Of a stretch of 63,045 nucleotides of DNA, positions 14,182-38,119 are shown piece by piece. The position numbers and the translations under genes were made by a program. The stretch covers positions 1 through 63,045 of the forward strand of contig CAMDHE010000013.1 in the NCBI GenBank assembly GCA_945898095.1. The letters are read 5' to 3'. The notes under the pieces are model-generated. The model did no database searches, was not told the origin of the DNA, and was given only the letters and a program-made list of their open reading frames with translations. Each line of letters opens with the position of its first letter. Positions within the stretch are counted from its first letter, which is position 1. This DNA is from Roseateles toxinivorans (lineage in GTDB: Bacteria > Pseudomonadota > Gammaproteobacteria > Burkholderiales > Burkholderiaceae_C).

Positions 14182-15162
14182 ATGACAAGATTGATCGACG
14201 GGGCTTCGTGGAGCCGTCGCCGCTGCTTGGCGGCTTTATCGCTGCTGGCCATGCCGTCGGCGCGCGCGCAGGGTGATGCGATACGCATCATCGTCGGGTT
14301 TCCGCCCGGTGGCGGTGCCGACTACGTGGCCAGGCTGCTCGCTGATCATCTCAAGGATCAACTCGGCGTGCCGGTGATCGTCGACAACCGGCCCGGCGCC
14401 GGTGGTGTCGTGGCTGCCAGCGTCTTCCTGCAGGCCAGCGCCGACGGCCGCACGCTGATCCTCGCCAGTGACCACATGCTCAGCGTGGTTCCGATGACGA
14501 TCGCCAAACCCGGCTACGACCCGGCGCGCGACTTTCTGGCGGTCGGCACGGTGGCGCTGGGCGAAACCGCCTTTGCCGTGCACCCGCACAAGGGCGTCAA
14601 GACGCTGGGCGACTACGCGGCCTGGTTGCGTACTCATCCCAAGGACGACGTGGCAGGCATCCCGGCGCCCGGCAGCGCGCCGGAGTTCATCGTCGCCCTG
14701 CTGGCCAAGCTGCTGGGCAATACGCTGCGCCCGGTCCCCTACCGCGGCGGCGCGCCGCTGATCCAGGACCTGATCGCCGGCCAGATCCCGGCGGGCCTGG
14801 CCACTGCGGGCGAGCTGTTCGCGCACCACCAAGCCGGCCGCGTGCGCATGCTCGGCCTGACCGGCGCCAAGCGCATGCCACTGCTGCCTGATGTGCCGAC
14901 CTTTGGTGAGCTGGGCTTGGCCGGGCTCGACCACAGCACCTACCTGGCGTTGTTTACGCGCAGCGGTACGCCGGCACCGGTGGTGGCCCGGCTCAACCAG
15001 GCGCTGCGCGCCACGCTTGAGGCGCCGAAGATGCGCGAGGGCCTGACCACGCTGTCGATGGCGCCGCTGCATGAGTCGCCCGAAGACCTGGCGGCGCGCC
15101 GTGACCGGTCCGCGGCCGCCTGGGCCAGGATCATCAAGTCCAGTGGCTACATGCCGCAATAG
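14182..15162 (+). CDS. Bug-family (TctC-like) solute-binding protein
   Basis: Predicted 326-aa periplasmic binding protein of the tripartite tricarboxylate transporter family, a group greatly expanded in Burkholderiales. A signal peptide (SRRRCLAALSLLAMPSARAQG, cleaved after about residue 29) is followed by the family hallmarks IIVGFPPGGGAD and DNRPGAGG and the LPDVPTFGELG segment near residue 235. No TctA/TctB membrane genes are in the window, as is common for orphan Bug proteins. It probably captures a carboxylate intermediate or substrate for this operon. Confidence 0.92.
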   Translation: MTRLIDGASWSRRRCLAALSLLAMPSARAQGDAIRIIVGFPPGGGADYVARLLADHLKDQLGVPVIVDNRPGAGGVVAASVFLQASADGRTLILASDHMLSVVPMTIAKPGYDPARDFLAVGTVALGETAFAVHPHKGVKTLGDYAAWLRTHPKDDVAGIPAPGSAPEFIVALLAKLLGNTLRPVPYRGGAPLIQDLIAGQIPAGLATAGELFAHHQAGRVRMLGLTGAKRMPLLPDVPTFGELGLAGLDHSTYLALFTRSGTPAPVVARLNQALRATLEAPKMREGLTTLSMAPLHESPEDLAARRDRSAAAWARIIKSSGYMPQ

Positions 15163-15279: not shown

Positions 15280-17412
15280 ATGGCCGAACGATCCTTCGTC
15301 GAAGAAGTCAAGAAGCTGCGCCTTGGTCAGGGCCAGGTTTTCCATGGTGAAGGCATATTGGCCGTCACCAAAGCCCTTCTCGAGTCTGGCGTGGCCTATG
15401 TCGCCGGCTACCAGGGTGCGCCCATCTCGCATTTGATGGACGTGCTGGCCGACGCCCAGGACATCCTGGCTGATCACGGTATCCACTTTGAAAACAGCGC
15501 CAGCGAAGCGACCGCCGCCGCCACGCTGGCCGCCAGCGTCAACTACCCGCTACGCGGTGCGGCCACCTTCAAAAGCACAGTGGGCACCAATGTAGCCAGC
15601 GATGCTTTGGCCAACCTGGCCTCGGGCGGCGTGACCGGCGGCGCGCTGATCATCGTCGGCGAGGACTATGGCGAAGGCAGTTCGATCATGCAAGAACGCA
15701 GCCACGCCTTCGCGATGAAATCGCAGATCTGGCTGCTGGACCCGCGGCCCAACCTGCCTAGCATCGTGCAGGCCGTGAAGGACGGCTTCGATCTGAGCGA
15801 GGCCAGCCACACGCCAGTGATGCTGCAGTTGCGCATCCGCGCCTGCCATGTGCATGGCCAATTCACGACCAGCGCCAACCGGCGCCCGGCTTATACATTG
15901 CGCGAGGCGATGGAAAACCCGCGTCGCGACACCAGTCGCATCGTCCTGCCGCCAGCCAGCTTCTTGCACGAGAAGGAAAAAGTGCAACAGCGCTGGCCTG
16001 CGGCGGTGAAGTTCATCCAGGAACGTGGCCTCAACGAATTCTTCAGCGAGCAAGATGACGACATCGGCGTCATCGTGCAGGGTGGAACCTACAACACCCT
16101 CGTGCGCGTGCTCGAGCGCCTCGGCGTGGCCGATGTGTTCGGCCGCACCCGCATACCGTTGTACGTCATGAACGTGGCCTACCCGGTGATCGATGCCGAG
16201 GTGCTGCGTTTTTGCGAAGGCAAGCGCGCGGTGCTGCTGGTCGAGGAAGGCCAGCCCAACTTCATCGAGCAGAACATCGCCAGCATCCTGCGTAGCGGCG
16301 GTTCGACAACCGCCTTGCACGGCAAGGACATGCTGCCGATGGCCGGCGAGTACACCGCGTCAGAAGTACTGGCCGGCGCGCGCAGCTTCCTCCAGCGCTA
16401 TGGGCGCTTGGCGGCGTCCACAACGGTTACTGCACCCAGCGAGCCTTTTGAAATCGCCGCCACCACGGTGCAGGCGCGCCCGCCGGGTTTTTGCACGGGT
16501 TGCCCTGAGCGGCCGATCTTTACCGCGATGAAGTTGGTCGAGCGCGAACTGGGTGAACACCATGTCTCAGCCGACATTGGTTGCCATCTGTTCTCGATCC
16601 TGCCACCGTTCAACCTGGGTAATACGACGATGGGCTACGGCCTGGGCTCGGCAGGTGCCGCCGCGCTCAACGTCAAGGCCGACAAACGTGCCATCAGCGT
16701 GATGGGCGACGGCGGCTTCTGGCACAACGGTCTGACCAGCGGCATCGCCAATGCGGTCTTCAACCGTTCGGACAACCTGACGATCGTCGTCGACAACAGC
16801 TACACGTCGGCCACCGGCGGCCAGGACATCCTGTCCTCCGCCGCTGCCAACCCGACCCGAAGCACAGGCCACGCGATCGAGAAAGCGGTGCGCGGCGTCG
16901 GCGTCGAGTGGGTGCGTACGGTGGAACATACCTACGACCTGGCGCGCATGAAGGCCGCGCTGAAAGATGCCCTGACCAGCAAGCAAAGTGGCCCGAAGGT
17001 GGTGATCGCGCGCAGCGAATGCATGCTCAACAAGCAGCGGCGCGAGAAACCCATCGTGCGCCAGGCTGTCGCGGCAGGCAAACGGGTCGTGCGTGAGCGC
17101 TTCGGTATCGATGCCGACACCTGCACCGGCGACCATTCCTGTATCCGCCTGTCCGGCTGCCCCTCGCTGACGATCAAACCCAACCCTGATCCGCTGCGCA
17201 CTGACCCTGTAGCGGCGGTCATCGATTCCTGTGTCGGCTGCGGCCTGTGCGGCGAGGTCGCGCATGCTGCCGTGTTGTGCCCCTCGTTCTACAAGGCGCA
17301 GATCGTCAGCAACCCCACCGCCTGGGACCGACTGGGCGAGCTGGTCCGTGGCAAGGTCATCGGCTGGCTTCAAGCTCGCGGAGCCGCGCGCCGCGCGCGT
17401 TTCGCGTTTTGA
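15280..17412 (+). CDS. iorA: Indolepyruvate:ferredoxin oxidoreductase-like alpha subunit (TPP, 4Fe-4S)
   Basis: Predicted 710-aa subunit that oxidatively decarboxylates 2-keto acids, typically arylpyruvates, to acyl-CoA with ferredoxin-type reduction. The N-terminal half has the pyrimidine-binding 2-oxoacid oxidoreductase domain (YQGAPISHLMD, ENSASEATAA). The TPP-binding motif GDGGFWHNG...NAVFNRSDN lies near residues 477-500. The C-terminus has cysteine clusters for two 4Fe-4S centres (CTGDHSC...SGCP and CVGCGLC...CP). IorB follows 2 bases later. The size fits the two-subunit IorAB type of Azoarcus-like bacteria rather than the fused about 1160-aa form. Its place in an aromatic cluster suggests an arylpyruvate substrate. 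Confidence 0.9.
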   Translation: MAERSFVEEVKKLRLGQGQVFHGEGILAVTKALLESGVAYVAGYQGAPISHLMDVLADAQDILADHGIHFENSASEATAAATLAASVNYPLRGAATFKSTVGTNVASDALANLASGGVTGGALIIVGEDYGEGSSIMQERSHAFAMKSQIWLLDPRPNLPSIVQAVKDGFDLSEASHTPVMLQLRIRACHVHGQFTTSANRRPAYTLREAMENPRRDTSRIVLPPASFLHEKEKVQQRWPAAVKFIQERGLNEFFSEQDDDIGVIVQGGTYNTLVRVLERLGVADVFGRTRIPLYVMNVAYPVIDAEVLRFCEGKRAVLLVEEGQPNFIEQNIASILRSGGSTTALHGKDMLPMAGEYTASEVLAGARSFLQRYGRLAASTTVTAPSEPFEIAATTVQARPPGFCTGCPERPIFTAMKLVERELGEHHVSADIGCHLFSILPPFNLGNTTMGYGLGSAGAAALNVKADKRAISVMGDGGFWHNGLTSGIANAVFNRSDNLTIVVDNSYTSATGGQDILSSAAANPTRSTGHAIEKAVRGVGVEWVRTVEHTYDLARMKAALKDALTSKQSGPKVVIARSECMLNKQRREKPIVRQAVAAGKRVVRERFGIDADTCTGDHSCIRLSGCPSLTIKPNPDPLRTDPVAAVIDSCVGCGLCGEVAHAAVLCPSFYKAQIVSNPTAWDRLGELVRGKVIGWLQARGAARRARFAF

Positions 17413-17414
17413 AC

Positions 17415-18914
17415 ATGCACGCCAAGGCGCAACCCCTCAAGATCGCCATCCTGGCCATGGGTGGCGAAGGTGGCGGGGTGCTGGCCGACTGGATCGTCGA
17501 CCTCGGCGAGCACAACGGCCACATCGCGCAGACCACCTCGGTACCGGGCGTCGCGCAGCGTACCGGCGCGACGATCTACTACGTCGAATTGTTCCCCGCT
17601 GCTGCGGCCGAACAGGCTGGCGCTGCGCCTGTGCTGGCGCTGATGCCGCTGCCCGGCGACGTTGACATAGTGCTGGCCTCCGAGCTGATGGAAGCCGGCC
17701 GCGCCGTGCAACGTGGCCTGGTGACGCCGGACCGCACCACCTTGATCGCTTCTACCCATCGCGTCTATGCCATCGCCGAAAAAATCGCCATGGGCGATGG
17801 CCGCGCCGACGACGCGACGCTGCTGGCGCTGGCACAAGCTGCGGCTCGACGCTTCGTCGGTTACGACATGGCGCAGGCTGCCGAGCAGAGCGGCAGCGTG
17901 ATCAGCGCAGTGATCTTCGGCAGCCTGGCGGGCACCGGCTTGCTCCCATTCACGCGCGCCCAGTTCGAAGCCACGATCGGCCGCGGAGGTGTCGGCGTCA
18001 AACCCAGTCTGAAGGCTTTCGGTGCGGCCTTTGAACATGCGTCGCACCTTGCGCCGACGACGAGCGCGAAGGCGAGCGCAGCGGTGGCGCTGCCTCGATC
18101 CCCGCACCCCGAAGTCCAAGCCCTCATAGAGCGCGCCGCCAAGGCCTTCGAAGGCGCTGCGTTGACCATCGTCCTGGAAGGCCTGCGTCGTCTGGTCGAC
18201 TATCAGGATCCAGCTTACGCTGCCTTGTACCTCGATCGTTTGGACAAGGTACGCGCCGTGGTGCGCGGGGGTGAACTCACGCTGGAAGTAGCGCGCCATC
18301 TTGCACTGTGGATGTCTTACGAAGACACCATTCGCGTCGCCGACCTGAAGACGCGCGGCTCGCGTTTCGAGCGCGTGCGCGACGAGGTCAAGGCTGCGCC
18401 GGGCCAAATGCTGTCCATTAACGAGTACATGCATCCGCGCCTGCAGGAGATCGCCGACACCATGCCAGCCGGCTTGGGCCGTTGGCTACTGGCGTCTGGC
18501 ACGCCGAGGCGATGGGTGGAGCGTCTCGCATCCAAGGGCAGGGTGGTGCGGACGAGTTCGCTGCGCGGCTATTTGATGTTGACCTTCTTGGCCGGACTGC
18601 GGCGCTGGCGCCGCAGCACGTTGCGCTTTGTCCATGAGAACGGGCGCATCGAGGCCTGGCTTGCCGAGATTCACCACGTATCCGACAGCGACCCGGCGCT
18701 GGCCACCGAGATCGCACGCTGCCAGCGCCTCGTCAAGGGCTACGGCGACACCCATGAGCGCGGGTTGCGCAACTATGCCTTGCTGCGCAGCGCCTGGCAG
18801 CGCGGCGGCCCGCGCATGACGGCCACACTGCTGGCCGAGTTGCGCCAGGCTGCCTTGGCCGACGAGCATGGCAAGGCACTCGCAACCGCGCTGCAGCAGC
18901 ATGCGTTGGCCTGA
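17415..18914 (+). CDS. iorB: Indolepyruvate oxidoreductase-like beta subunit with DUF6537-type tail
   Basis: Predicted 499-aa partner of IorA. The N-terminal about 190 residues are the gamma-type 2-oxoacid:acceptor oxidoreductase domain (ILAMGGEGGGVLADWI, TTSVPGVAQRTGATIYYVE). The rest is a long helical tail of the DUF6537 kind seen in IorB of this two-subunit type. The start ATG 17415 lies directly after the iorA stop; the in-frame upstream extension overlaps iorA and is not used. Confidence 0.88.
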   Translation: MHAKAQPLKIAILAMGGEGGGVLADWIVDLGEHNGHIAQTTSVPGVAQRTGATIYYVELFPAAAAEQAGAAPVLALMPLPGDVDIVLASELMEAGRAVQRGLVTPDRTTLIASTHRVYAIAEKIAMGDGRADDATLLALAQAAARRFVGYDMAQAAEQSGSVISAVIFGSLAGTGLLPFTRAQFEATIGRGGVGVKPSLKAFGAAFEHASHLAPTTSAKASAAVALPRSPHPEVQALIERAAKAFEGAALTIVLEGLRRLVDYQDPAYAALYLDRLDKVRAVVRGGELTLEVARHLALWMSYEDTIRVADLKTRGSRFERVRDEVKAAPGQMLSINEYMHPRLQEIADTMPAGLGRWLLASGTPRRWVERLASKGRVVRTSSLRGYLMLTFLAGLRRWRRSTLRFVHENGRIEAWLAEIHHVSDSDPALATEIARCQRLVKGYGDTHERGLRNYALLRSAWQRGGPRMTATLLAELRQAALADEHGKALATALQQHALA

Positions 18915-18926
18915 GGAAGACGCCCG

Positions 18927-19916
18927 ATGAACGACAACTCCACCCTGCAGATGCGTGTTGTCCAGGCCAATGAACTCAACCCGCTGATCCGCGAGTTCCG
19001 ACTATGTGCTGCCGATGGCGCCCCGCTGCCCGGCTTCACCGCAGGCTCGCATGTGCGCGTGCGGGTCAGGCTGGCCGATGGCAGCTTAGACTGGCGCCAC
19101 TACTCGCTGGTCAATTTCTCGCCGGCGCCGGATGCCACTGCCAAGCCGGCCGAGTATGTGATCGCCGTGCGCAAGGAAGAGCCGGGGCGCGGCGGCTCGC
19201 AGTTCATGCACATGCGACTGGTCGAAGGCGATCTGCTGACCATCGAGGCACCGACCAATCAGTTCCCCGTCGGCGCGCATTCGGGTACCGCTGTGATGGT
19301 GGCCGGTGGCATCGGTGTCACGCCGCTCACGGCCATGGCGGCTCGTCGCCGCGCCGACGATTTGCCGGTGCGCATGGTTTATGCCGGCCGCAGCCGCGAG
19401 CTGATGGCCTACCTGTCCGAGTTGCAGGCGCTGCTGGGTAGCGACCTGACGGCGCATGCTGACGACGAGATCGGCAAACCGGTCGATGTGGCCGCACTCC
19501 TCGATGCCTGCGGGCCGATGGACGAACTCTATGTCTGCGGCCCGGGCTCGATGCTCCACGCCGTGCAGCAAGAGGCCGAAAGCCGGGGCTGGCCGCGCGA
19601 GCGCGTGCACTTCGAGGTGTTCGCTCCGGCATTGCATGTCGCGGGCGACAGTGTCATCGAGGTCGTGCTCTCTCAAAGCGGCAAGACGCTCAGCGTGCCG
19701 GCCGACAAGACAATCCTGCAATGTCTGATCGATGCTGGCTGTGACCCGCTGTTCGACTGCCAGCGCGGCGAGTGCGGCGTCTGCGTCGTGCCGGTGATCG
19801 AAGGCGCCATCGACCACCGCGACCATGTGTTGTCCCAGACCGAGAAGGATGGCGGCAAGTTGATCCAGGTTTGTGTGTCCCGTGCCAAGGGCGCGCGCTT
19901 GGTGCTCGATCTGTAG
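18927..19916 (+). CDS. Ferredoxin-NAD(P) reductase of a Rieske oxygenase (class IA type)
   Basis: Predicted 329-aa electron-transfer protein with the phthalate-dioxygenase-reductase order: flavin domain (RHYSLVNF, about residues 54-61), NAD domain (VAGGIGVTPLTAM, then YVCGPGSM), and a C-terminal plant-type 2Fe-2S domain with CQRGECGVC and a distal Cys in IQVCVSRA. It would pass electrons from NAD(P)H directly to the Rieske oxygenase encoded next. Start ATG 18927 follows a GAGGAAG-like site 12 bases after iorB. Confidence 0.93.
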   Translation: MNDNSTLQMRVVQANELNPLIREFRLCAADGAPLPGFTAGSHVRVRVRLADGSLDWRHYSLVNFSPAPDATAKPAEYVIAVRKEEPGRGGSQFMHMRLVEGDLLTIEAPTNQFPVGAHSGTAVMVAGGIGVTPLTAMAARRRADDLPVRMVYAGRSRELMAYLSELQALLGSDLTAHADDEIGKPVDVAALLDACGPMDELYVCGPGSMLHAVQQEAESRGWPRERVHFEVFAPALHVAGDSVIEVVLSQSGKTLSVPADKTILQCLIDAGCDPLFDCQRGECGVCVVPVIEGAIDHRDHVLSQTEKDGGKLIQVCVSRAKGARLVLDL

Positions 19917-19925
19917 GAGGTTTGC

Positions 19926-21257
19926 ATGAGCAAGTACCGAGACAATCCCGAGGCCGTCGCGGCGCTGGTGCGCGACACCGAGATCCACAAGGACTGCTAT
20001 GTCGACGAGGAATTGTTCCGACTCGAGATGGAGAATTTGTTCGCCAACACCTGGGTCTATGTCGGCCACGCCAGCCAGGTATCCAGGGTGGGCGACTTCT
20101 ACTCCACGACCGTCGGTGACCAGGCCGTGGTCATGGTGCGTCACACTGATCAGTCAGTGCGCGTGCTGTACAACCGCTGTGCCCACAAGGGCGTGCAGGT
20201 CGCGCCCGATGGTTGCGGCAATACCGGCAAGTTCTTCCGCTGCCCTTATCACGCATGGACTTACAAGACCGACGGCTCGCTGCTCGCCATACCGTTGAAG
20301 AAGGGCTATGACTTCCCCGAGTTCGACGCCTGCGAGGCCAAGCGCGGCATGAAGCCCGTGGGTGAGGTCAAGGTTTATCGCGATTTCGTTTTTTGCCGTC
20401 TGAACCCCGAAGGCGTGGGTTTCGAGGAATTCTTCGGCGATTCGCTTTCGACCCTCGACAACATGGTCGACCGCTCACCCGAGGGCAAGCTCGAAGTCAC
20501 GGGCGGTGTGATGCGATACATGCACCGATGCAACTGGAAGATGCTGGTCGACAACCAGACGGACACCTGCCACCCGATGGTGGCGCACGAATCCTCGGCC
20601 GGCACCGCCGTCAAGGTCTGGCAGGCCGCGGCTGAGGGCACGCCCAAGCCAATGGCGGTGGAGCTGTTCGCGCCTTTCATCAACTCCTACGAGTTCTTCG
20701 AGAACATGGGCATCCGGGTGTGGGTCAACGGCCACGGCCACACCGGCGTCGCTGATTCGATCCATGCCGCCTACTCGCCTGCACCTGGCTACCTGGAGAG
20801 CATGGTCGCCGCCTACGGCGAAGAGCGCGCGAAGCGGATCCTGGGCGATGTACGTCACAACACGGTGTATTTCCCGAACATCATGGTCAAGGGGCCGATC
20901 CAGACCCTGCGCCTTTTCAAGCCGATCGCCGCCGATAGGACATTGGTCGAGTCATGGACCTTTCGGCTCGTCGGCGCGCCCGATCTGCTGCTTGAGCGCA
21001 CCCTCATGTACAACCGTCTGGTCAATGCGCCGACCTCGGTGGTCGGACACGACGACCTGGAGATGTATGAGCGCGCGCAGCAGGGGCTGCAGACGCGTGC
21101 CGCACATTGGGTCAATGTCGGCCGGCTTTACAGCCCGACCGAACATGGCCAGACCAATGCGGTAACAAACGGCACGAACGAATGGCAGATGCGTGCCCAG
21201 ATGCGCGCATGGGTGAAGTACATGACAGCCTCGATGAAACATGGAGTTTCTGCATGA
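19926..21257 (+). CDS. Rieske aromatic-ring oxygenase, alpha subunit
   Basis: Predicted 443-aa catalytic subunit. Rieske 2Fe-2S ligands are Cys85, His87, Cys106 and His109. The mononuclear iron site follows the naphthalene-dioxygenase spacing, with bridging Asp213 and iron ligands His216 and His221 (DTCHPMVAH). The third carboxylate is probably in GHDDLEMYERA near residue 380. An AGGAGG site lies 5 bases before ATG 19926. With the adjacent reductase and beta subunit this is a complete oxygenase; it could be a ring dihydroxylase or an O-/N-demethylating monooxygenase. The alpha-beta composition favours ring hydroxylation. Confidence 0.94.
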   Translation: MSKYRDNPEAVAALVRDTEIHKDCYVDEELFRLEMENLFANTWVYVGHASQVSRVGDFYSTTVGDQAVVMVRHTDQSVRVLYNRCAHKGVQVAPDGCGNTGKFFRCPYHAWTYKTDGSLLAIPLKKGYDFPEFDACEAKRGMKPVGEVKVYRDFVFCRLNPEGVGFEEFFGDSLSTLDNMVDRSPEGKLEVTGGVMRYMHRCNWKMLVDNQTDTCHPMVAHESSAGTAVKVWQAAAEGTPKPMAVELFAPFINSYEFFENMGIRVWVNGHGHTGVADSIHAAYSPAPGYLESMVAAYGEERAKRILGDVRHNTVYFPNIMVKGPIQTLRLFKPIAADRTLVESWTFRLVGAPDLLLERTLMYNRLVNAPTSVVGHDDLEMYERAQQGLQTRAAHWVNVGRLYSPTEHGQTNAVTNGTNEWQMRAQMRAWVKYMTASMKHGVSA

Positions 21258-21736
21258 GTGCACCGACGAAACAACAGTTGATTGACTTCGTCATCGCCGA
21301 AGCCCGCATGCTCGACGAATTGCGCTTCGACGACTGGCTCGGGCTCTTCACCGACGACGCCTACTACTGGATGCCGCTGGCCCATGGTCAAACCGACCCC
21401 AAGTTGCACGCCTCCTTGATGTACGAGGACAAGATGCTGCTGAACGTGCGCATCGAACGCCTGCGTGGCGCACGCACTTTTTCACAGCAGCCAAAGAGCC
21501 GCTGCCACCATCTGCTGCAAACGCCCGAGGTCGAGTCTTGTGATGAGGCTGCTGGCGTCTACACCACCCGCACCGCCTTCCACTATCTCGAGACGCGCAT
21601 GGATGAGCAGACCCTCTACGCTGGTTGGGCCACGCATACGCTGGTGGGGCAGGCAGACGCGCTGCGCATCCGGTTGAAGCGTGTGGACCTCGTCAATTGC
21701 GATGCGGCTTTCGGCAACATCCAGTTGTTCATGTAG
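21254..21736 (+). CDS. Rieske aromatic-ring oxygenase, beta subunit
   Basis: Predicted 160-aa NTF2-fold structural subunit, normal length for the family. Typical features are the N-terminal FDDWLGLFTDDAYYWMPL segment and the C-terminal RVDLVNCDAAFGNIQLFM ending. ATG 21254 overlaps the alpha stop as ATGA, supporting stoichiometric translation. Confidence 0.93.
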   Translation: MSAPTKQQLIDFVIAEARMLDELRFDDWLGLFTDDAYYWMPLAHGQTDPKLHASLMYEDKMLLNVRIERLRGARTFSQQPKSRCHHLLQTPEVESCDEAAGVYTTRTAFHYLETRMDEQTLYAGWATHTLVGQADALRIRLKRVDLVNCDAAFGNIQLFM

Positions 21737-21744
21737 GGCCGGCG

Positions 21745-23379
21745 GTGAGCAATACTGCCTCCACAGTCGCCGCAGCCTTCGCCGCTGCGGCCGCGCGCTG
21801 GCCCGCGCGACCCTTCATTGCCGTTCTGGCCGAGACCGCCGCCATCTACGGCATCGCCGCGGGCGAGTTGAGCTACGCCGACGCGCAGCGGCGCATCTGC
21901 GAATTGCGCGCGGCATATATCTGCGCCGGCTATGGCAACGGCCACCGCGTCGGCTTGATGCTGGAAAACCGCCCGGCCTTCTTCCTGCACTGGTTTGCGC
22001 TCAACGGCCTGGGTGTATCGGTGGTGCCGATCAATGCCGAGTTGCGCGCGGCGGAACTCGAATATCTGGTTGGGCACTCGGAGATTGCACTCGCTGTCGC
22101 CTTGCCGCAGCGGCACGCGGATCTGCGGGCTGCCGCCGCGGCGGCCGGCCGCACGCTGGCGCTGATGGCCGATGGCCAGATACCGCCGGACGCACCGGTT
22201 GAATCGCATCATGCCCAAGGTGCCATCGGCGAACTAGCCGAATGCGCGTTGCTCTACACCTCGGGCACCACGGGCCGTCCCAAGGGCTGCATCCTGCCCA
22301 ACCGCTACTTCCTGCATGCCGGGCGCTGGTACGCCGGCATCGGTGGCATGGCATCACTGCGCCCAGGTGAAGAACGCATGCTCACGCCGCTGCCATTGGT
22401 GCACATGAATGCGATGGCCTACTCTGCGATGGCGATGGTGCTCACGGGGGGGTGCCTGATCGTGCTCGATCGTTTCCATCCCGGCAGTTGGTGGGCCAGC
22501 GTGCGCGAGTCACAAGCCAGCGTCGTGCACTACCTCGGGGTGATGCCGGCCATGTTGATGAAATCTGCGCAACCTGCCGACGACACAAGGCACGCGGTCC
22601 GCTTCGGCTTCGGTGCAGGTGTAGACAAGGCCTTGCATGCGTCCTTTGAGCAGCGCTTTGGCTTCCCACTGCTCGAAGCCTGGGCGATGACCGAGACCGG
22701 CGCTGGTGCGGTAGTCATGGCCCACGACGAACCGCGCTGTGTCGGCACCAGTTGTTTCGGCCGGGAAGGTGCCGACGTCGAGGTCAGAATAGTTGCCGAC
22801 GACGGCAATGAGGCCGGCATCGATCAGCCAGGCGAGCTTTGGGTGCGCCACGCTGGCGTCGACCCGCGTTACGGCTTCTTTGCCGGCTACCTGAAGGATG
22901 CGCAAGCCACGGATGAGGCATGGGCTCAAGGCTGGTTCCACACCGGCGACATCGTGCAGCGCGACGCGCAGGTAATGTTGCACTTCATCGACCGGCGCAA
23001 GAACGTGATTCGCCGAAGCGGCGAGAACATCTCGGCAGTCGAAGTGGAAAGCGTGCTCAACCAGCACCCCGCCGTCAAGACCAGCGCGGTGGCTGCAACG
23101 CCCGATCCCTTGCGCGGCGACGAAGTGCTGGCTTGTGTGGTGCTGCGCGAGGCCATTGCCGAAGCCGACCATGCGGCGCTGGCCGCCAGCATCGTCGAAC
23201 ATGCCTTGGAGCGCCTGGCGTACTACAAGGCGCCGGGCTACGTGGCCTTTCTCGATGCCCTCCCGCTGACCGCGTCGCAAAAAATACAGCGTGGCGAGCT
23301 CAAGGCGCTGGCCTTGGCGCTGCCGGGACAGTCGCACTGCGTCGATACTCGTGCGATGAAGAAGCGCCAGCTCGGATGA
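21745..23379 (+). CDS. Acyl/aryl-CoA ligase (AMP-forming), module 1
   Basis: Predicted 544-aa ANL-superfamily ligase. The P-loop-like YTSGTTGRPKG lies near residue 172, with the AWAMTETG motif, GWFHTGD, the hinge RRKNVIRRSGENIS and a C-terminal catalytic Lys in TASQKIQRGE. It should activate a carboxylate to a CoA thioester with ATP. The start is GTG 21745, 8 bases after the oxygenase beta stop; no ATG fits as well. Its stop overlaps the next start as ATGA (23376-23379), tying the ligase to the thiolase-like protein. Confidence 0.9.
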   Translation: MSNTASTVAAAFAAAAARWPARPFIAVLAETAAIYGIAAGELSYADAQRRICELRAAYICAGYGNGHRVGLMLENRPAFFLHWFALNGLGVSVVPINAELRAAELEYLVGHSEIALAVALPQRHADLRAAAAAAGRTLALMADGQIPPDAPVESHHAQGAIGELAECALLYTSGTTGRPKGCILPNRYFLHAGRWYAGIGGMASLRPGEERMLTPLPLVHMNAMAYSAMAMVLTGGCLIVLDRFHPGSWWASVRESQASVVHYLGVMPAMLMKSAQPADDTRHAVRFGFGAGVDKALHASFEQRFGFPLLEAWAMTETGAGAVVMAHDEPRCVGTSCFGREGADVEVRIVADDGNEAGIDQPGELWVRHAGVDPRYGFFAGYLKDAQATDEAWAQGWFHTGDIVQRDAQVMLHFIDRRKNVIRRSGENISAVEVESVLNQHPAVKTSAVAATPDPLRGDEVLACVVLREAIAEADHAALAASIVEHALERLAYYKAPGYVAFLDALPLTASQKIQRGELKALALALPGQSHCVDTRAMKKRQLG

Positions 23380-24557
23380 TGGCAAACATCACCACACGCA
23401 AGGGTTACGAAGGCATCGCCGTCGCGGTGCCGGTCACGGTGCCCTATATGCGTTACTCGACGCGCAGCGCCCACTGGTTCCTCGGTCAGGCCATCCAGGC
23501 GCTGATCAAACAAAGCGGTGTGCCCAAGGAACAGATCGACGGCCTCACGGTGAGCAGCTTCTCCCTCGGACCCGACACGGCGGTGGGCGTCACTCAGCAC
23601 CTGGGGCTCTCGCCGCGCTGGCTTGACCACATCCCCACCGGCGGCGCCAGCGGCGTGATGGCATTACGCCGCGCCGCGCGTGCGGTTCAGGCGGGTGACG
23701 CCAGCATCGTCGCTTGCGTGGCAGCGGACACCAACCAAGTCGATTCCTTTCGCATGATGCTCGGCAGCTTCAGCAGCTTCGCGCGTGACGCGACCTACCC
23801 CTACGGCTCGGGTGGCCCCAACGCTATATTCGCCTTCATCACCGCCAACTACATGCACAAGTACGGGGCGCGACGCGAGGACTTCGGCCGCATTTGCGTC
23901 GACCAGCGCACCAACGCGCTGGCCTATGGTTCGCGCATGTTCAAGAAGCCTTTGACGCTGGACGAGTACTTGGCCGCGCGGCCCATCGCCGACCCGATCC
24001 ACCTGTTCGACTGCGTGATGCCCTGCGCCGGGGCCGAGGCCTTCCTGGTGATGAGCGAGGAGCGCGCCCGCGACCTCGGCCTGCCCTTCGCCACGATGCG
24101 TGGCGCAATCGAGCGCCACAACGCCTTTTCCACCGACCCCGTGATGGAACGCGGCGGCTGGCTGGTCGACCGCGCCGAGCTCTATGCGATGGCCGATGCA
24201 AAGCCTGCTGACATTGATTTTTTACAGGCCTACGACGACTATCCCGTCATCGTGATGATCCAGTGCGAGGATCTGGGCTTTTGCGACAAGGGCGAGGGCC
24301 CGGCCTTCGTGCGCGCCCACGGTATGACGTTCGCAGGCGACTTCCCCATCAACACCTCAGGCGGCCAGCTCTCCACCGGCCAAGCCGGTGCGGCGGGTGG
24401 CTTCATGGGTGTGACCGAGTCGATTCGGCAGCTCACCAACCACGCCGAGGGCCGCGCTGTGAAGGACGCTCAGCTCGGCCTGATCGGCGGTTTCGGCATG
24501 GTGACCTACGACCGCTGCCTGTGCACCGGCGCGGCGATCCTGGGGCGCTCGTCATGA
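23376..24557 (+). CDS. SCP2-thiolase-like protein without thiolase catalytic residues (Ltp2-like), module 1
   Basis: Predicted 393-aa member of the non-decarboxylating thiolase/lipid-transfer-protein group. At the usual nucleophilic-cysteine position (about residues 86-95) it reads IPTGGASGVM, with no Cys. The usual GHP histidine motif is replaced by TGQAGAAG (334-341). Tyrosines are present at 286 and 289 (QAYDDYP), in the region where Ltp2 aldolases carry an active-site Tyr. Together with the DUF35 protein encoded next, this fits an Ltp2-ChsH2(DUF35)-type retro-aldolase cleaving a beta-hydroxyacyl-CoA, rather than a thiolase. The assignment as aldolase is inference from family knowledge and gene pairing. 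Translationally coupled to the upstream CoA ligase. Confidence 0.82.
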   Translation: MMANITTRKGYEGIAVAVPVTVPYMRYSTRSAHWFLGQAIQALIKQSGVPKEQIDGLTVSSFSLGPDTAVGVTQHLGLSPRWLDHIPTGGASGVMALRRAARAVQAGDASIVACVAADTNQVDSFRMMLGSFSSFARDATYPYGSGGPNAIFAFITANYMHKYGARREDFGRICVDQRTNALAYGSRMFKKPLTLDEYLAARPIADPIHLFDCVMPCAGAEAFLVMSEERARDLGLPFATMRGAIERHNAFSTDPVMERGGWLVDRAELYAMADAKPADIDFLQAYDDYPVIVMIQCEDLGFCDKGEGPAFVRAHGMTFAGDFPINTSGGQLSTGQAGAAGGFMGVTESIRQLTNHAEGRAVKDAQLGLIGGFGMVTYDRCLCTGAAILGRSS

Positions 24558-24567
24558 GGAGACTGGC

Positions 24568-25818
24568 ATGACCATGCCCCTGATGCGCCCCAAGCGCAAG
24601 AACCCGATCCTGCGCACGCGGCAGATGAACCTGCCGCCCTGGGCCCGCAGCCGCGTGGCGATGGGGCTGACAGTGGCCGCCGCCGAGGGCCGCTTCGAGC
24701 TGCAGGTCTGCGAGGACTGCGCCACCGTGCAATACCCGCCGCGTGAAGCCTGCTGCGCTTGCGTGTCGCCGCGCCTGAAGTGGCGGCCGCAATCGGGTGC
24801 CGGGCAGTTGCTTGCCACCACGACGCTCCACCACAGCAACGACCTCTTCTTCCGCGAGCGCCTGCCATGGCGCCTGGGCCTGGTGCATCTGGACGCCGGC
24901 CCGACGCTGATGGTGCACCTGCATGGCGACGTCGGCGACAAGCCCCAGCGCGTGACGGTCGGCGCCCGCCTGGACCGCGCTGGCCGCGCCGTGGTGATTG
25001 GATTCCCTCCATCGGAGACACAGAACATGGCTGACGACAAGATGTTGCGCGAGATGACGAGCGACCCCAGATTCCGCAAAGTGCTGGTCACCGACGGCAA
25101 GACCGGCGTCGGCCAGGCGCTGGTGCGCTCGCTGGTCAAGGCCGGGGCCGACATCGTGTGGGTGGGCCATGCCGAACCCTGGAAGAAGATGCCCGGCCTT
25201 GACGACATCACGGCGCTGCCGCAGGTGACGCTGGTGCCACTGGATCTGACCAACGGGCGCTCGGTGACCGAACTCGCCGGCGAGATCGGCGGCAAAGTCG
25301 ACATCGTCATCAACAACGCCGAGTTGCACCGCAGCTTCGGCATCGCCGCTCGCCGCGGCACTGACGCTGCCAAGGCCGAGATGGACATCAACTACTTCGG
25401 CCTGCTGCGCCTGGCGCAGGAGTTCGGCCCGGCGCTCAGGGGCCGGGCAGCCGACGGCACGATCGGTGCCACCGCATGGGTCAATCTGCTGTCGATCTAC
25501 GCATTGGCCAATTTTCCGCCGCATGGCACTTACTCGGCCAGCAAGGCGGCGGCGCATTCACTCTCGCAATGCCTTCGTGCAGAGATGCGGCCTGCGGGCA
25601 TCCGCGTGGTCCATGTCTTCCCCGGACCGATCGACGACGAATGGAACCAGAACATGCCACCGCCCAAGCTCACGCCCGAGGCCGTGGCCAATGCCATCGT
25701 CAAGGCATTGCGCGATGGGATCGAAGATGTCTACCCGGGCGACGTGGCGCAAGAGTGGCTGGAGCGGTGGCGCGAAAACCCCAAGGTGCTGGAGCGCGAA
25801 CTGGCTGCAGGCGGATGA
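24568..25818 (+). CDS. DUF35 OB-fold domain fused to a short-chain dehydrogenase
   Basis: Predicted 416-aa fusion. Residues about 1-150 form a DUF35 acyl-CoA-associated protein: a rubredoxin-like zinc ribbon (CEDC and CCAC pairs, about 48-66) followed by an OB-fold ending VVIGFPPS. Residues about 165-416 form an SDR with a degenerate cofactor loop (TDGKTGVG), NNAE, and an intact YSASK pair. At the junction an in-frame ATG at 25027 is preceded by GGAG 9 bases upstream, so a separate SDR product could also be translated. DUF35 partners are needed by Ltp2-like aldolases; the SDR could reduce or oxidise the carbonyl released. The stop overlaps the next start as ATGA. Confidence 0.85.
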   Translation: MTMPLMRPKRKNPILRTRQMNLPPWARSRVAMGLTVAAAEGRFELQVCEDCATVQYPPREACCACVSPRLKWRPQSGAGQLLATTTLHHSNDLFFRERLPWRLGLVHLDAGPTLMVHLHGDVGDKPQRVTVGARLDRAGRAVVIGFPPSETQNMADDKMLREMTSDPRFRKVLVTDGKTGVGQALVRSLVKAGADIVWVGHAEPWKKMPGLDDITALPQVTLVPLDLTNGRSVTELAGEIGGKVDIVINNAELHRSFGIAARRGTDAAKAEMDINYFGLLRLAQEFGPALRGRAADGTIGATAWVNLLSIYALANFPPHGTYSASKAAAHSLSQCLRAEMRPAGIRVVHVFPGPIDDEWNQNMPPPKLTPEAVANAIVKALRDGIEDVYPGDVAQEWLERWRENPKVLERELAAGG

Positions 25819-26609
25819 CCATGATGAACAACACCCAACTCCTTGCCGCTCTGGCCGGCGCACTCACCAGCGGCGGCATCCGCGTGGTGGACCTGACTCA
25901 GACGCTCACGCCCGACTTTCCGCAAATCGCCTTGCCGCCCGAGATGGGGCAGTGCTGGCCCTTCCGGATCGAAGAGGTGTCGCACTACGACGAGCGCGGT
26001 CCCGGTTGGTACTGGAACAATTTTTCCTGTGGTGAGCACACCGGCACGCATTTCGACGCGCCGATCCATTGGATATCAGGCCGCCACCTGCCCAACAACG
26101 CAGTCGATACGATTCCTCCACAGCACTTCGTGGCGCCGGCCGTGGTGATTGATTGCGTCGACAAAGTCAAGGCCGATCCGGACTACCTGCTCAGCGTGGC
26201 CGACATCGCGGCCTTCGAGGCTCAGCATGGACGCATCCCTGCGGGCAGTTGGGTGCTGATGCACACCGACTGGAGCAAGCGGCAGGACCCCGAGGCTTAC
26301 CAGAACTTCGACGAGACTGGCCAACACACACCCGGCCCGAGCAGTGAGGCGGTGCAGTTCCTTGTCGAGAAGCGCGACGTGCTCGGTTTCGGTTCCGAGG
26401 CCATCGGCACCGATGCCGGTCAGGGCTACCACCTGCGCCCGCCATACCCCTGCCATTACTTCATGCACGGGGCAGGACGCTACGGCCTGCAATGCCTGAC
26501 CAACCTGGACCAGTTGCCGCCCACCGGCAGCGTGCTGATCTGCCCGCCGCTGAAAATCCAGCAAGGCAGCGGCAGCCCGCTACGTGTGCTGGCACTCGTC
26601 GGAGCCTGA
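25815..26609 (+). CDS. Cyclase-family hydrolase (kynurenine-formamidase-like)
   Basis: Predicted 264-aa metal-dependent hydrolase of the cyclase family. The signature GEHTGTHFDAPIHW (about residues 72-85) supplies the HxGTHxDxPxH metal-binding motif, and VDLTQTLTPDFP near the N-terminus is typical. Relatives include kynurenine formamidase, polyketide cyclases and lactone or isatin hydrolases, so an amide, lactone or cyclic imide may be opened. ATG 25815 overlaps the DUF35-SDR stop (ATGA). Confidence 0.87.
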   Translation: MTMMNNTQLLAALAGALTSGGIRVVDLTQTLTPDFPQIALPPEMGQCWPFRIEEVSHYDERGPGWYWNNFSCGEHTGTHFDAPIHWISGRHLPNNAVDTIPPQHFVAPAVVIDCVDKVKADPDYLLSVADIAAFEAQHGRIPAGSWVLMHTDWSKRQDPEAYQNFDETGQHTPGPSSEAVQFLVEKRDVLGFGSEAIGTDAGQGYHLRPPYPCHYFMHGAGRYGLQCLTNLDQLPPTGSVLICPPLKIQQGSGSPLRVLALVGA

Positions 26610-26611
26610 CA

Positions 26612-27343
26612 GTGAAACCACGCGGCGTCGCCCTCGTCACGGGCACCAGCACGGGTATCGGCAAGGTGCTGTGCGAGCACCTGCTGGATAGCGGCCATGA
26701 GGTGGTGGCGATGGCACGGCGCAAGACCGAGATCGAGCACCCGCGCCTGCACAGTGTGAGCGTCGATCTGACCGACCGCGCCGCCACTGCGCAAGCCGCG
26801 GCCGAAGTGACGAGGCGATTCGCCATCACCACCTTCGTGCACAACGCCGGCATCATCCGCCCCGCCTTGCTGGGCGAGGTCAAGCTCGAAGACCTCGATG
26901 CCTTGACCGAGTTGCACCTGGGCAGCGCCATCACAATTGCGCAGGCGGTGCTGCCGACGATGCGCGCGCTGGGTTTCGGCCGCATCGTGCTGCTGTCTTC
27001 GCGCGGCGCGCTGGGTCTGGCCACCCGCAGCGTTTACTCGGCCACCAAGGCCGGCATGATCGGCATGGCACGCACCTGGGCGCTTGAGTTGGCGCCCGCG
27101 GGTATCACCGTCAACGTCGTCGCACCAGGCCCGATCCGCGGCACCGAGATGTTCCACGCGGTGGTACCCGCCGAAAGCGAACGCGAGCACAAGCTGGCCG
27201 AAGCCATCCCTGTCAAGCGCCTGGGTACACCAGAAGACGTGGCCCGCGCGGTGGACTTCTTTGTCGACCCCGGCAATGGTTTCATCACGGGGCAGGTGCT
27301 CTATGTGTGCGGCGGAGCGAGCATCGGCAGCGTGACGATCTGA
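26612..27343 (+). CDS. Short-chain dehydrogenase/reductase (SDR)
   Basis: Predicted 243-aa classical SDR with TGTSTGIG, HNAGI, Ser in LLSSRGA, YSATK and a C-terminal GQVLYVCGGAS. The start is GTG 26612, 2 bases after the cyclase-family stop; the ATG-less reading continues upstream into that gene and is not used. Last gene of the long rightward operon. Substrate unknown. Confidence 0.88.
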   Translation: MKPRGVALVTGTSTGIGKVLCEHLLDSGHEVVAMARRKTEIEHPRLHSVSVDLTDRAATAQAAAEVTRRFAITTFVHNAGIIRPALLGEVKLEDLDALTELHLGSAITIAQAVLPTMRALGFGRIVLLSSRGALGLATRSVYSATKAGMIGMARTWALELAPAGITVNVVAPGPIRGTEMFHAVVPAESEREHKLAEAIPVKRLGTPEDVARAVDFFVDPGNGFITGQVLYVCGGASIGSVTI

Positions 27344-27442: not shown

Positions 27443-28525
27443 TCACGACGCTGTGACGCCGATCACACCGCGGCGCACCTGGTCGCGCTCGATCGATTCG
27501 AACAGCGCCTTGAAGTTGCCTTCCCCGAAACCGTCGTCTCGCTTGCGCTGGATGAACTCGAAGAACACCGGGCCGACCATCGTCTGCGAGAAGATCTGCA
27601 GCAGCAGCCGTGCATCGCCTTGCTGTGTCGAACCGTCGAGCAGGATGCCGCGCATCTTCAGTTCGCCCACCGGCTCGCCATGCCCGGGCAGGCGCTCCTC
27701 TAACATCTCGTAGTAGGTGGCCGGTGGCGCGGTCATGAAGGGCACGCCGCGGGCTTTGAGCTTGTCCCAGGCCACGAGCAGGTCGTCACAGGCCAGCGCG
27801 ATGTGCTGGATACCCTCGCCGTTGTACTGCATCAAGAACTCTTCGATCTGCCCCGCGCCGCGCGACGATTCCTCGTTCAGCGGGATGCGTATCCTGCCGT
27901 CGGGCGAGGTCATGGCCTTGGAGGTCAGGCCTGTGTACTCGCCTTTGATGTCGAAGAAACGGATCTCGCGGAAATTGAAGATGCGCTCGTAAAACGCCGC
28001 CCAGTAGCCCATGCGGCCGCGGTAGACGTTGTGCGTCAGGTGGTCGATCAGTTGGAAGCCGCAACCCGGGGGGTGGCGATCGACACCCGGCGCGAATTCG
28101 AAGTCGATGTCGTAGATCGACTTGCCGTCTTCATAGCGGTCGATCAGGTACAGCGGCGCGCCACCGATGCCCTTGATGGCCGGCAGGCGCAACTCCATCG
28201 GGCCGGTGGGGATCTCGATCGGCTGGGCGCCGAGTTCCAGAGCGCGCTCGTAGGCCTTATGTGCGTCGCGCACTCGAAACGCCATGCCGCAGGCTGACGG
28301 ACCATGCTCGGCAGCGAAGTACGCCGCCTGGCTGCGCGGCTCATGGTTGACGATGAAGTTGATGCCACCCTGACGGTACAGAGTGACATCCTTCGATCGA
28401 TGCCGCGCCACGCGGCTGAATCCCAGAGTCTCGAACACGGCCTCGAGCGCGCCGGGTGTGGGCGAGGCAAACTCAACGAATTCGAAGCCCTCCAGGCCCA
28501 TCGGGTTGTCAAACAGGTCGGCCAA
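27443..28525 (-). CDS. hpd: 4-Hydroxyphenylpyruvate dioxygenase (HPPD)
   Basis: Predicted 360-aa non-haem iron dioxygenase, the standard bacterial length. Numbering from the chosen start, the iron ligands are His162 (DHLTHNV), His241 (GIQHIAL) and Glu323 (FFEFIQRK), within one residue of the classical Pseudomonas positions. It should convert 4-hydroxyphenylpyruvate to homogentisate. The start is TTG 28525, preceded by AGAGGAG 7 bases upstream and giving the usual N-terminus (ADLFDNPMG); a longer reading upstream to 28723 lacks family similarity. 4-Hydroxymandelate synthase is an alternative reaction for this fold, but HPPD is favoured. No homogentisate dioxygenase gene is nearby. Confidence 0.92.
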
Positions 28526-28992
28526 TTCTTCGCTCCTCTGGATGCGCTTGCACGGTAGGCACCAGCATATGCAATCCGACACCTCGAGGCTGATGAACGG
28601 GGCAGGTGTGCTTATGCAAGCCTGGCGCCAACCTCGAATCGCATAGGTCCTGGCCCGCTGTGCAAGGTTTTTGGCATTGATCGCATGCAGGCCATGACTT
28701 ACCGCAAATGACGACTCGGCCACGCCGGTCCATCGTCACCGCTGCGTGCAGCGTTTGCTCTGCCAGCCAATATGCAGCCGGCTTCGTTTACGGAATCCGA
28801 ACGGCGCCAGTTCCTGTCCGAACCCCGAACCAACGCATGCAAGCCATGAGTGCCTTCGTAGGTGTTGACGACCTCCACGTTCACCAGGTGACCTGCAACG
28901 CCGGCCTCAGCGTGGACCTCGACCATTAGCGGCAAGGCCATTGGCATATCCTGTGGGCCGCGCCCAGTAGAGCGGTTCAAGCAGTTGCAGCG
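28526..28992. other. 467-base gap holding an acyl-CoA dehydrogenase relic
   Basis: Between HPPD and the thioesterase there is no intact gene. Apart from the relic at 28822-28890 (separate entry), I see no promoter, repeat or RNA. The HPPD promoter should lie near its left end, just upstream of 28525. Confidence 0.5.
28822..28890 (-). pseudogene. Relic of a glutaryl-CoA/acyl-CoA dehydrogenase C-terminus
   Basis: On the minus strand 23 codons read [20 protein letters not shown] followed by VRG. This closely matches the conserved C-terminal [20 protein letters not shown] block of glutaryl-CoA-dehydrogenase-like acyl-CoA dehydrogenases. Similarity stops abruptly on both sides and no flavin-binding or catalytic parts exist, so this is a deletion remnant. 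It shows that an acyl-CoA dehydrogenase gene once lay upstream of hpd in the same orientation. Confidence 0.7.
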
Positions 28993-31562: not shown

Positions 31563-33065
31563 TCAGCCAAACGAGTACTCGACGACCTGCTGGCGCATAT
31601 AGCTCTCCATGCCCTTCAAGCCGCCTTCGATGCCAAAGCCAGATTGCCGCGCCGGCTCAGCCGATTGGTTGAGCATTGAGCCTTCGGTGGGCATCGGCGA
31701 GGCCATGACCTTGACCTTGCCCACCTTCATGCGAGAGGTGATGTCGTTGGCATGTTTGATGTCACGCGTCCACAACGTAGCCGCCAAGCCAAAGTCTCCA
31801 CTGTTGGCGATGGGAAGCACGTCGTCTACGCTATCGAAACGGTTGACGGTCAGCACCGGGCCGAAGATTTCCTCGATGTTCAGGCGACTGTCTGCGCCAA
31901 GGCCGGAGAAAACGCTGGGCTGAAGGTAGTAGCCCCCCGCAGGCAAGTCCTGAGTCTGGCGGCCGTCCACCAGGAGCTGCGCTCCCTCGGCAATGCCGGC
32001 GCCGATGTACTCGAGCGCGATGTCGCGCTGCCTTGCGTTGGCCATCGCGCCATACTGCGTGGCCTTGTCTTGTGGATGGCCGGCCCGGATCGAGCGCGCC
32101 ACGCCGATGATGCGGTCCAGCAGCGGTGCATACAGATCCTTGTGCACGTAGAGGGCAGAGCGCGCCACGCACAGTTGACCGCAGTTGGCAAAAGCGCCCA
32201 TCACAATCTGCATCGCCATGCCGTCAAGGTCGCTTGATGCCATGTCGCCCAGCACGAACTCTCGGTTCTTGCCCCCGCACTCCAGCAGCAGCGGCTTGAT
32301 CGCCGAGCCGCCGATGGCGGACATCAAGGCGCGACCAGTTGGGGTGGAACCGGTGAAGGTGACCATGTCGACATCGGCATGGCGCACCAGCAGGTCGCCG
32401 CTGGCGCCATTACCTTGCACGATGTTGAGCACACCTGCCGGCAAGCCTGCATCGATGGCCAGGGTGGCCAGCAGTTCGGATGAGCGGGGCGAGATCGACG
32501 AGGGCTTGACGATGACGCTGTTGCCCGCAGCCAGCGCCGGCGCGATCTTCAGGCAGGTGTTGACCAGTGGATAGTTCCACGGCGTGATGGCCACCACAAC
32601 GCCACGCGGCCGTCGGACCTGCACCTCCATCGACTGCGCACAGGTGGGTACCGTGGCACCGGTGTAGTGCTTGTCCAGCACCTCGGCGTAGTAGCGGATG
32701 AAGGCCGCCGCGATGCGCGATTCGAACATCGCACCCGAGATCGGTTTGCCGACATCGAGTGAATCCGCCAGCGCCAGCGCTTGCCCGTTGGCCTCGATGC
32801 CGGCGGCAAACTTCAGCAACACGCCGCGCCGCCCCATCGGACTCATGCGCGCCCAGCGGCCGTCGTCGAAGGCGGCGCGCGCCGAGGCCACCGCCGCATT
32901 CACCGTGCCGGCACCGGCGGCCGTGAAGCGCAAGGCGGCTGAACCGTCGGCCGGGTTGTGGGTCTGCACCTGAGCATCACCGTCGGCAGCCGAAAAAAAA
33001 CCTTCGATAAAAGCGTCCCCGCGAAAGGGCAGATCATTGGTCAGTTGGGTCGATGGGGTGTTCAT
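31563..33065 (-). CDS. NAD(P)-dependent aldehyde dehydrogenase
   Basis: Predicted 500-aa ALDH-superfamily enzyme with catalytic Cys299 (NCGQLC), general base Glu262 (LECGGKN), cofactor motif FTGSTPTGR and TPWNYPL. It oxidises an aldehyde to an acid. In this operon the aldehyde could come from the GMC alcohol oxidase encoded upstream or from retro-aldol cleavage by the DUF35/thiolase-like pair. Cytoplasmic, no leader. Confidence 0.94.
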   Translation of the reverse strand: MNTPSTQLTNDLPFRGDAFIEGFFSAADGDAQVQTHNPADGSAALRFTAAGAGTVNAAVASARAAFDDGRWARMSPMGRRGVLLKFAAGIEANGQALALADSLDVGKPISGAMFESRIAAAFIRYYAEVLDKHYTGATVPTCAQSMEVQVRRPRGVVVAITPWNYPLVNTCLKIAPALAAGNSVIVKPSSISPRSSELLATLAIDAGLPAGVLNIVQGNGASGDLLVRHADVDMVTFTGSTPTGRALMSAIGGSAIKPLLLECGGKNREFVLGDMASSDLDGMAMQIVMGAFANCGQLCVARSALYVHKDLYAPLLDRIIGVARSIRAGHPQDKATQYGAMANARQRDIALEYIGAGIAEGAQLLVDGRQTQDLPAGGYYLQPSVFSGLGADSRLNIEEIFGPVLTVNRFDSVDDVLPIANSGDFGLAATLWTRDIKHANDITSRMKVGKVKVMASPMPTEGSMLNQSAEPARQSGFGIEGGLKGMESYMRQQVVEYSFG

Positions 33066-33082
33066 GATTACCTTTGGTCAAA

Positions 33083-34684: not shown

Positions 34685-34689
34685 CTCGC

Positions 34690-35112: not shown

Positions 35113-35125
35113 TGGATGCACCCCT

Positions 35126-37887: not shown

Positions 37888-38119
37888 GACAGGGAGATTG
37901 CTATGCAGTTGGGGCAAGAGCCGCAGAGCCGCAGGATATACGGGTGGATGGTCTTGCGCTTATGCAGGTAAAGCCCAGGCTATTGCCATCGCGCGCACTT
38001 GCTGCACGCCGCTTTGATCGCAATGCTGCGTTGGATGATCGCAAGCAATGGGCGGGCGCATCTCCACTACGATCGACTCATGCAACAGCAAGTGCGCGGG
38101 CGCGAGGAGGCTTGAGTCG

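Follow-up and report, generated by a model that had tools for sequence, protein, structure and literature searches.

We analysed a stretch of 63,045 nucleotides from Roseateles toxinivorans (assembly GCA_945898095.1, contig CAMDHE010000013.1; hereafter, the window), in which three genes at 21745..25818—encoding a CoA ligase, a thiolase-fold protein lacking the nucleophilic cysteine, and a fusion of DUF35 with a short-chain dehydrogenase/reductase (SDR)—are iadF, iadG, and iadH of the iad operon for aerobic degradation of the auxin indole-3-acetate. The explanation of the whole that we consider likely is that IadG, together with the DUF35 half of IadH, would perform a retro-aldol cleavage, with the SDR half of IadH serving mainly as a scaffold. 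On the residues and neighbours described below, IadG is probably a retro-aldolase of auxin degradation, a prediction that contradicts the published assignment from annotation. A more exacting version—that IadG represents a non-steroid branch of DUF35-partnered aldolases with a Tyr-Asp site, that it converts the CoA thioester of dioxindole-3-acetic acid (DOAA) to isatin and acetyl-CoA with no reductant, that its DUF35 partner is fused to a dead SDR, and that the published thiolase/alcohol-dehydrogenase scheme is wrong in kind—has, in our judgement, somewhat better than an even chance of being right in full. A sequence-only reading of this DNA had presented the trio as a candidate new module, not recognising the published iad locus; the operon is already known, and what is new is the aldolase role proposed for IadG, removal of the acetyl unit having previously been left to annotation.

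The coupling and gene families described in that reading held up: the three genes share a strand, iadF overlaps iadG by 4 bases, iadH begins after a gap of 10 bases, and Pfam matches confirm each family, including a DUF35 protein directly behind the thiolase-like gene. The iad genes of the window are the following.

18927..19916, plus strand: IadC-like oxygenase reductase (Pfam Fer2 and NAD_binding_1), adjoining IadD as in Variovorax-titled loci
19926..21257, plus strand: IadD-like Rieske oxygenase alpha subunit (598.9 bits to 9o71)
21254..21736, plus strand: IadE-like oxygenase beta subunit (Ring_hydroxyl_B, 99.5 bits)
21745..23379, plus strand: IadF, AMP-forming CoA ligase (Pfam AMP-binding, 188.4 bits; AMP-binding_C, 61.9 bits)
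23376..24557, plus strand: IadG, cysteine-less thiolase-fold protein (Thiolase_C_1, 111.4 bits)
24568..25818, plus strand: IadH, DUF35-SDR fusion, whole gene (zf-ChsH2, 33.0 bits; OB_ChsH2_C, 46.8 bits; adh_short, 91.6 bits; all above cut-off)
24568..24975, plus strand: DUF35 half of IadH, zinc ribbon (Cys48, 51, 62, 65) and OB fold (boundary from the Pfam match)
25078..25818, plus strand: degenerate SDR half of IadH (adh_short, 91.6 bits; boundary from the Pfam match)
25821..26609, plus strand: IadI, isatin hydrolase (370.2 bits to 5nmp)
26612..27343, plus strand: IadJ, intact SDR dehydrogenase (adh_short_C2, 143.3 bits; motifs TGTSTGIG and YSATK), with the GTG at 26612 as its probable start

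The trio can be identified as iadF-iadG-iadH because the genes follow the same order (C-D-E-F-G-H-I-J) as in the iad operon of Variovorax paradoxus CL14, the oxygenase is of the IadD type, and an isatin hydrolase gene is present. The best PDB matches of the window IadD are 9o71 (598.9 bits) and 7yls (588.6 bits)—the latter named just a Rieske domain protein, which we take to be an earlier IadD entry—and the next match reaches only 157.1 bits. The 9o71 structure is IadD of V. paradoxus (2025 preprint, PMC12633357), and the window protein keeps the four Rieske ligands and the iron ligands, with 13 of 14 published ligand and indole-3-acetate-pocket residues the same and Gln at Leu211. Downstream, IadI scores 370.2 bits against the isatin hydrolase 5nmp versus 24.7 bits against the kynurenine formamidase 4cob, and its motif HxGTHxDxP occurs in 91/91 extracted orthologues.

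In published work on Variovorax, IadCDE and IadJ oxidise indole-3-acetate to DOAA. According to the preprint (PMC12633357), deleting any one of iadF through iadJ reduces anthranilate; loss of iadF, iadG, iadH, or iadI makes a compound C10H9NO4, assigned as DOAA, accumulate; and DOAA consumption requires iadF, iadG, and iadH, with roles given from annotation (IadF a ligase, IadG a ketothiolase, IadH an alcohol dehydrogenase). Its main text contains neither ‘aldol’ nor ‘DUF35’, nor ‘thiolase’ as the start of a word. Across the literature searched (titles, abstract starts, and term counts, with most subscription journals outside its scope), we recognised no aldolase reading of iad and no DOAA-CoA, and no activity test of IadG turned up. 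Further sources were drawn on (PMC12329534, PMC11321319, PMC10374108, PMC9613470, and PMC8383072), with Jensen 1995 and Egebo 1991 as cited in PMC8383072 and the Ltp2 structure paper as cited in PMC12329534.

Retro-aldol cleavage of DOAA-CoA to isatin and acetyl-CoA balances without a reductant (C10H9NO4 minus C8H5NO2 leaves C2H4O2), and isatin is the substrate of enzymes related to IadI, which would take the next step in the pathway. DOAA bears a tertiary hydroxyl on its beta carbon that cannot be oxidised to a beta-ketone, and thiolysis therefore has no substrate in DOAA-CoA. We propose that, after IadCDE and IadJ have converted indole-3-acetate to dioxindole-3-acetate, IadF would form the DOAA-CoA thioester and IadG, bound to the DUF35 half of IadH, would cleave it by a retro-aldol step—Tyr286 would deprotonate the C3 hydroxyl, the bond between C3 and CH2 would break, isatin would leave, and the resulting acetyl-CoA enolate would be protonated, most likely by Asp288. 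By opening isatin, IadI would pull the reversible cleavage forward, and the SDR half of IadH would be mainly a scaffold.

Thiolase motifs (HDxF, GHP) and SDR motifs are named here in the usual way. As the sequence-only reading had claimed, IadG has neither the nucleophilic cysteine nor the GHP histidine, and has tyrosines in a YDDY motif: Gly90 occupies the position of the nucleophilic Cys (Gly89 in CtSal, the Sal aldolase of Comamonas testosteroni), Gln336 that of the GHP His (Gln352 in CtSal, Tyr344 in Ltp2), and Y286-D-D-Y289 stands where thiolases carry HDxF (YDCY in CtSal, YDHF in Ltp2). CtSal residues were numbered along its printed chain with an offset of 24, inferred from Tyr302. G90, Y286, D287, D288, Y289, Q331, and Q336 are invariant across 94/94 distinct sequences, window included, so YDDY is not a matter of chance. 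These sequences derive from 96 loci plus the window, the loci having been selected for similarity to IadG (80 of them being the top 80 among 582 candidates) and at least three locus pairs coming from the same or overlapping contigs (L035/L111, L019/L119, and L094/L095); counts are therefore of sequences, not of independent events. A catalytic cysteine elsewhere, against which the earlier proposal had suggested an alignment check, was not found: none of the other invariant cysteines (114, 213, 217, and 303) aligns with any thiolase catalytic position. Cys303 is shared with Sal; Cys217, among 44 tree rows, is otherwise found only in a YDDF paralogue and in 7yvy, not in Sal or Ltp2; and Cys213 or Cys217 is a possible proton donor. 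By both sequence and fold, CtSal is the best PDB match of IadG, with solved aldolases nearest, and the Pfam Thiolase_N match reaches only 19.1 bits, below its cut-off of 26.4. Residues, fold rank, neighbours, and chemistry lend good support to an Ltp2-like mechanism, with a DUF35 partner and a Tyr base outside steroid metabolism, and to this extent the earlier proposal stands; where it departs from Ltp2 and Sal is the second aldolase residue, which is replaced (Asp288, Gln336).

In the proposed partner protein, all four zinc-binding cysteines are kept in 91/91 distinct IadH sequences, the closest PDB chain to the DUF35 half is ChsH2(DUF35) (6ok1_B, 31.3 bits), and in at least 93 of the 94 loci with an IadH match, that match covers 98% or more of the fusion. 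Erosion marks the SDR half: among the 91 sequences, the first Rossmann Gly is kept in none, the second in 3, and the third in 90, the catalytic Tyr persists in 15 (Phe in 70), and Ser, Tyr, and Lys occur together in 12, window included, with Phe replacing Tyr in all 33 aligned Variovorax-titled IadH (from 35 loci). IadJ, by contrast, when aligned the same way, keeps its three Gly, Tyr, and Lys in 59/59. Part of the erosion is possibly older than IadH, since 5u4s, the PDB chain nearest to this half, is likewise without the Tyr, though it retains the Gly motif. Judging by these residues, the SDR half is probably not an active dehydrogenase, and the MaoC half of ChsH2, reported to be without catalytic residues, offers a precedent for DUF35 fused to a degenerate enzyme half. 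Sal with the DUF35 half of Shy alone was reported to be active, to lose activity when diluted, and to fall below half of the full complex in specific activity. A structure model of IadH was of poor quality (mean pLDDT 57.8, pTM 0.47) and was set aside.

Several observations weigh against this interpretation, beginning with IadH. The window copy retains Ser309, Tyr322, Lys326, and the last two of the three Rossmann Gly; in the preprint (PMC12633357), C8H7NO2, the formula of dioxindole, follows IadFGH, also in the iadI deletion, and the removal is called reductive, while C8H5NO2 (isatin) does not appear in the main text. Isatin was detected in a 2022 study, and our account assumes that the dioxindole is isatin reduced in the cell. 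The published need for iadH is compatible with a partner role but unexplained by it, and DUF35 has been reported as unimportant for Ltp2 activity. The alternative that draws most on these points keeps the retro-aldolase but has an active IadH SDR reduce isatin, so that dioxindole is released and then opened by IadI; accumulation of C8H7NO2 without iadI, together with the intact Ser-Tyr-Lys set of the window protein, would fit it. We nevertheless regard it as unlikely, given the loss of Rossmann and catalytic residues across the 91 IadH, the uniform Phe in Variovorax-titled proteins, the intact IadJ alongside, and the nearest relatives of IadI having been solved as isatin hydrolases.

Other contrary points concern the active site of IadG and its ancestry, read again as a retro-aldolase. 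It is without the acid residue of either known aldolase (Sal Cys304 is Asp288, Ltp2 Tyr344 is Gln336), the proposed oxyanion residue of Sal, Gln161, is Pro or Ala in IadG sequences, and replacing CtSal Cys304 with Ala, Ser, or His is reported to abolish activity, which calls into question whether Asp could serve at that position. IadG groups with Sal in one tree (82/92) and with Ltp2 in another (91/91), the latter run omitting four long rows and keeping 12 of 24 non-window IadG rows; because placement shifted with the rows included, we dropped both candidate sister relationships. Those reference fragments in the trees that were taken from printed PDB alignments have incomplete ends. The phylogenetic check on kinship with true thiolases gave a divided answer: putting IadG and the thiolases on the same side of a split costs 4.84 log units, and this arrangement is not rejected (approximately unbiased test, p-AU 0.089). 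Finally, the window IadD is only 54-58% identical to IadD of the 35 Variovorax-titled loci, compared with about 70-84% for some other Burkholderiales loci; it is not especially near the Variovorax enzyme, so that the auxin substrate is itself a prediction from homology.

That IadG is instead a true ketothiolase is very improbable. On this account C10H9NO4 would be 2-formamidobenzoylacetate, IadG would thiolyse its CoA ester to N-formylanthraniloyl-CoA, and IadI would be a formamidase, following the route of Egebo 1991 (cited in PMC8383072). The postulated intermediate does share the formula C10H9NO4 (worked out in this analysis), and an acetyl-CoA acetyltransferase label comes from the preprint and from the best NCBIfam match, the latter below cut-off; however, the nucleophilic Cys and GHP His are missing in 94/94 sequences, and IadI matches isatin hydrolase far better than it does 4cob. 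Moreover, tandem mass spectrometry in the preprint excludes N-formylanthranilate for C8H7NO3, and the loss of one deuterium reported there upon C10H9NO4 formation is what DOAA predicts, a prediction that is our own (PMC12633357). No more probable is that IadG is non-catalytic or acts differently, for example, as a hydrolase or enolate-forming decarboxylase, with another enzyme removing the side chain: the replaced acid and oxyanion residues and the report that the related TbSLP only weakly decarboxylates malonyl-CoA would suit this, but deletion of iadG is reported to cut anthranilate formation and raise C10H9NO4, and Tyr286, Asp288, and Gln336 are invariant.

Of 300 genomes searched in the order, 9 contain IadG at E 1e-100 or better; of 398 in the phylum, 8 do at E 1e-90, its own genome included in each count. 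iadG, iadH, and iadI lie in that order on one strand in 91 of the 96 loci; iadH follows iadG in 94, both misses being contig ends, and in the remaining three loci iadI is absent (L104, L106) or displaced (L120). An IadF match is present in 93 of 96 loci and reaches at least 45% identity in 81 of these. In 12 loci with conserved IadG (L040, L045, L050, L054, L055, L056, L066, L070, L077, L080, L089, and L112), the best IadF match is only 34-37% identical, and recruitment of another CoA ligase is possible there. IadD is matched in 84 of 96 loci, and eight loci lack a match despite over 4.5 kb of DNA upstream, yet retain iadG, iadH, and iadI; IadG is thus tied more tightly to the isatin hydrolase than to the oxygenase. 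Four of the six genomes behind IadD-less loci have some IadD-like match—about 19-33 kb away in G406, G492, and G507, and as two weaker matches in G175—whereas G548 and G664 have none at E 1e-60; IadH was found in 8/8 genomes tried. The matches at G492:C151:23755-25068 and G507:C1:6184554-6185870 (67% identity) each contain one stop codon. Loci L037 and L036, from G548 and G664, keep iadG-H-I, and another oxygenase may feed the same module there; a Pfam scan of 10 chosen neighbours in L020, L036, L037, L039, and L081 found no oxygenase family at E 1e-5. Genes of the Asp/Glu/hydantoin racemase family lie upstream of iadG in L039 (10477-11343) and upstream of iadF in L020 (5568-7712).

Upstream of iadC, the window contains the following genes.

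14182-15162: TctC-type binding protein, upstream of the iad genes
15280..17412, plus strand: IorA-like indolepyruvate ferredoxin oxidoreductase alpha subunit (TIGR03336, 295 bits, below the curated cut-off of 651)
17247..18914, plus strand: IorB-like subunit (NF006179, 716 bits, exceeding the cut-off of 348), its real start probably further inside, the family match starting at residue 58

IorA accompanies iadG in 66 of 96 loci and IorB in 71 of 96, a co-occurrence hinting that indolepyruvate enters the same pathway. A gene resembling 4-hydroxyphenylpyruvate dioxygenase (27443-28723, minus strand) faces the operon. Further along, 31563-37917 on the minus strand holds a second set of CoA ligase, thiolase-like, and DUF35 genes, with a GMC oxidoreductase and an aldehyde dehydrogenase as neighbours; its thiolase-like protein has a GHP-type His and no Cys at the nucleophile position.

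If correct, a retro-aldol step would amend the iad scheme and account for the joint retention of iadG, iadH, and the isatin hydrolase gene; it would also take the Ltp2/Sal aldolases outside steroid metabolism, add a third active-site solution to them, and assign a function to a DUF35 protein carrying an eroded enzyme half. The iad pathway enables Variovorax and its relatives to restore root growth, and iad cassettes have already been transferred to other root bacteria (PMC12633357).

Comparison with known systems places these proposals in context. The genome encodes its own Sal on contig 29 (76% to the CtSal stretch, YDCY) and its own Ltp2 on contig 9 (65% to the TcLtp2 stretch, YDHF), each present in only this and one other of 200 genomes in the order; IadG is therefore a third, separate member and not a displaced steroid gene. 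In total the genome has 10 DUF35 sites and 15 Thiolase_C_1 sites, two of the latter weak. One paralogue on contig 4 (L141 84-1268; tree row L128) lies beside a DUF35 site and carries a YDDF motif, with Gln at the GHP position and a Cys aligned to IadG Cys217; the larger tree puts it with IadG (97/94), and it may be another non-steroid aldolase, although its long branch led us to give it no weight.

The iad locus of V. paradoxus CL14 encodes the same families as the window in the same order. Sal-Shy(DUF35) of C. testosteroni (9MYR) shares with IadG the thiolase fold, a Gly replacing the Cys, the Tyr of a YDxY motif, a Gln replacing the GHP His, the counterpart of Gln331 (Gln347), and a neighbouring gene for a DUF35 fusion; it differs in identity (28-29% in fold comparisons), in Cys304 for Asp288 and Gln161 for Pro148 of the window protein, in a partner that joins DUF35 to a MaoC hydratase instead of an SDR, and in an aldehyde product and steroid context, where IadG would give a ketone with no steroid context. 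Ltp2-ChsH2(DUF35) (6OK1), at 26-27% identity, has the Tyr base (in YDxF) and a DUF35 partner whose impaired MaoC half parallels the SDR of IadH, and has His296 and Tyr344 in place of Asp288 and Gln336. Like the proposed IadG, Ltp2 splits a tertiary beta-hydroxyacyl-CoA to a ketone, releasing propionyl-CoA and not acetyl-CoA. The DUF35-associated thiolase BbsAB shares the fold and a DUF35 partner, whereas IadG lacks both the Cys and the GHP His that BbsB retains. IadG would therefore work like Sal and Ltp2 but should not be filed as either, because the known acid residue (Cys304 or Tyr344) is replaced.

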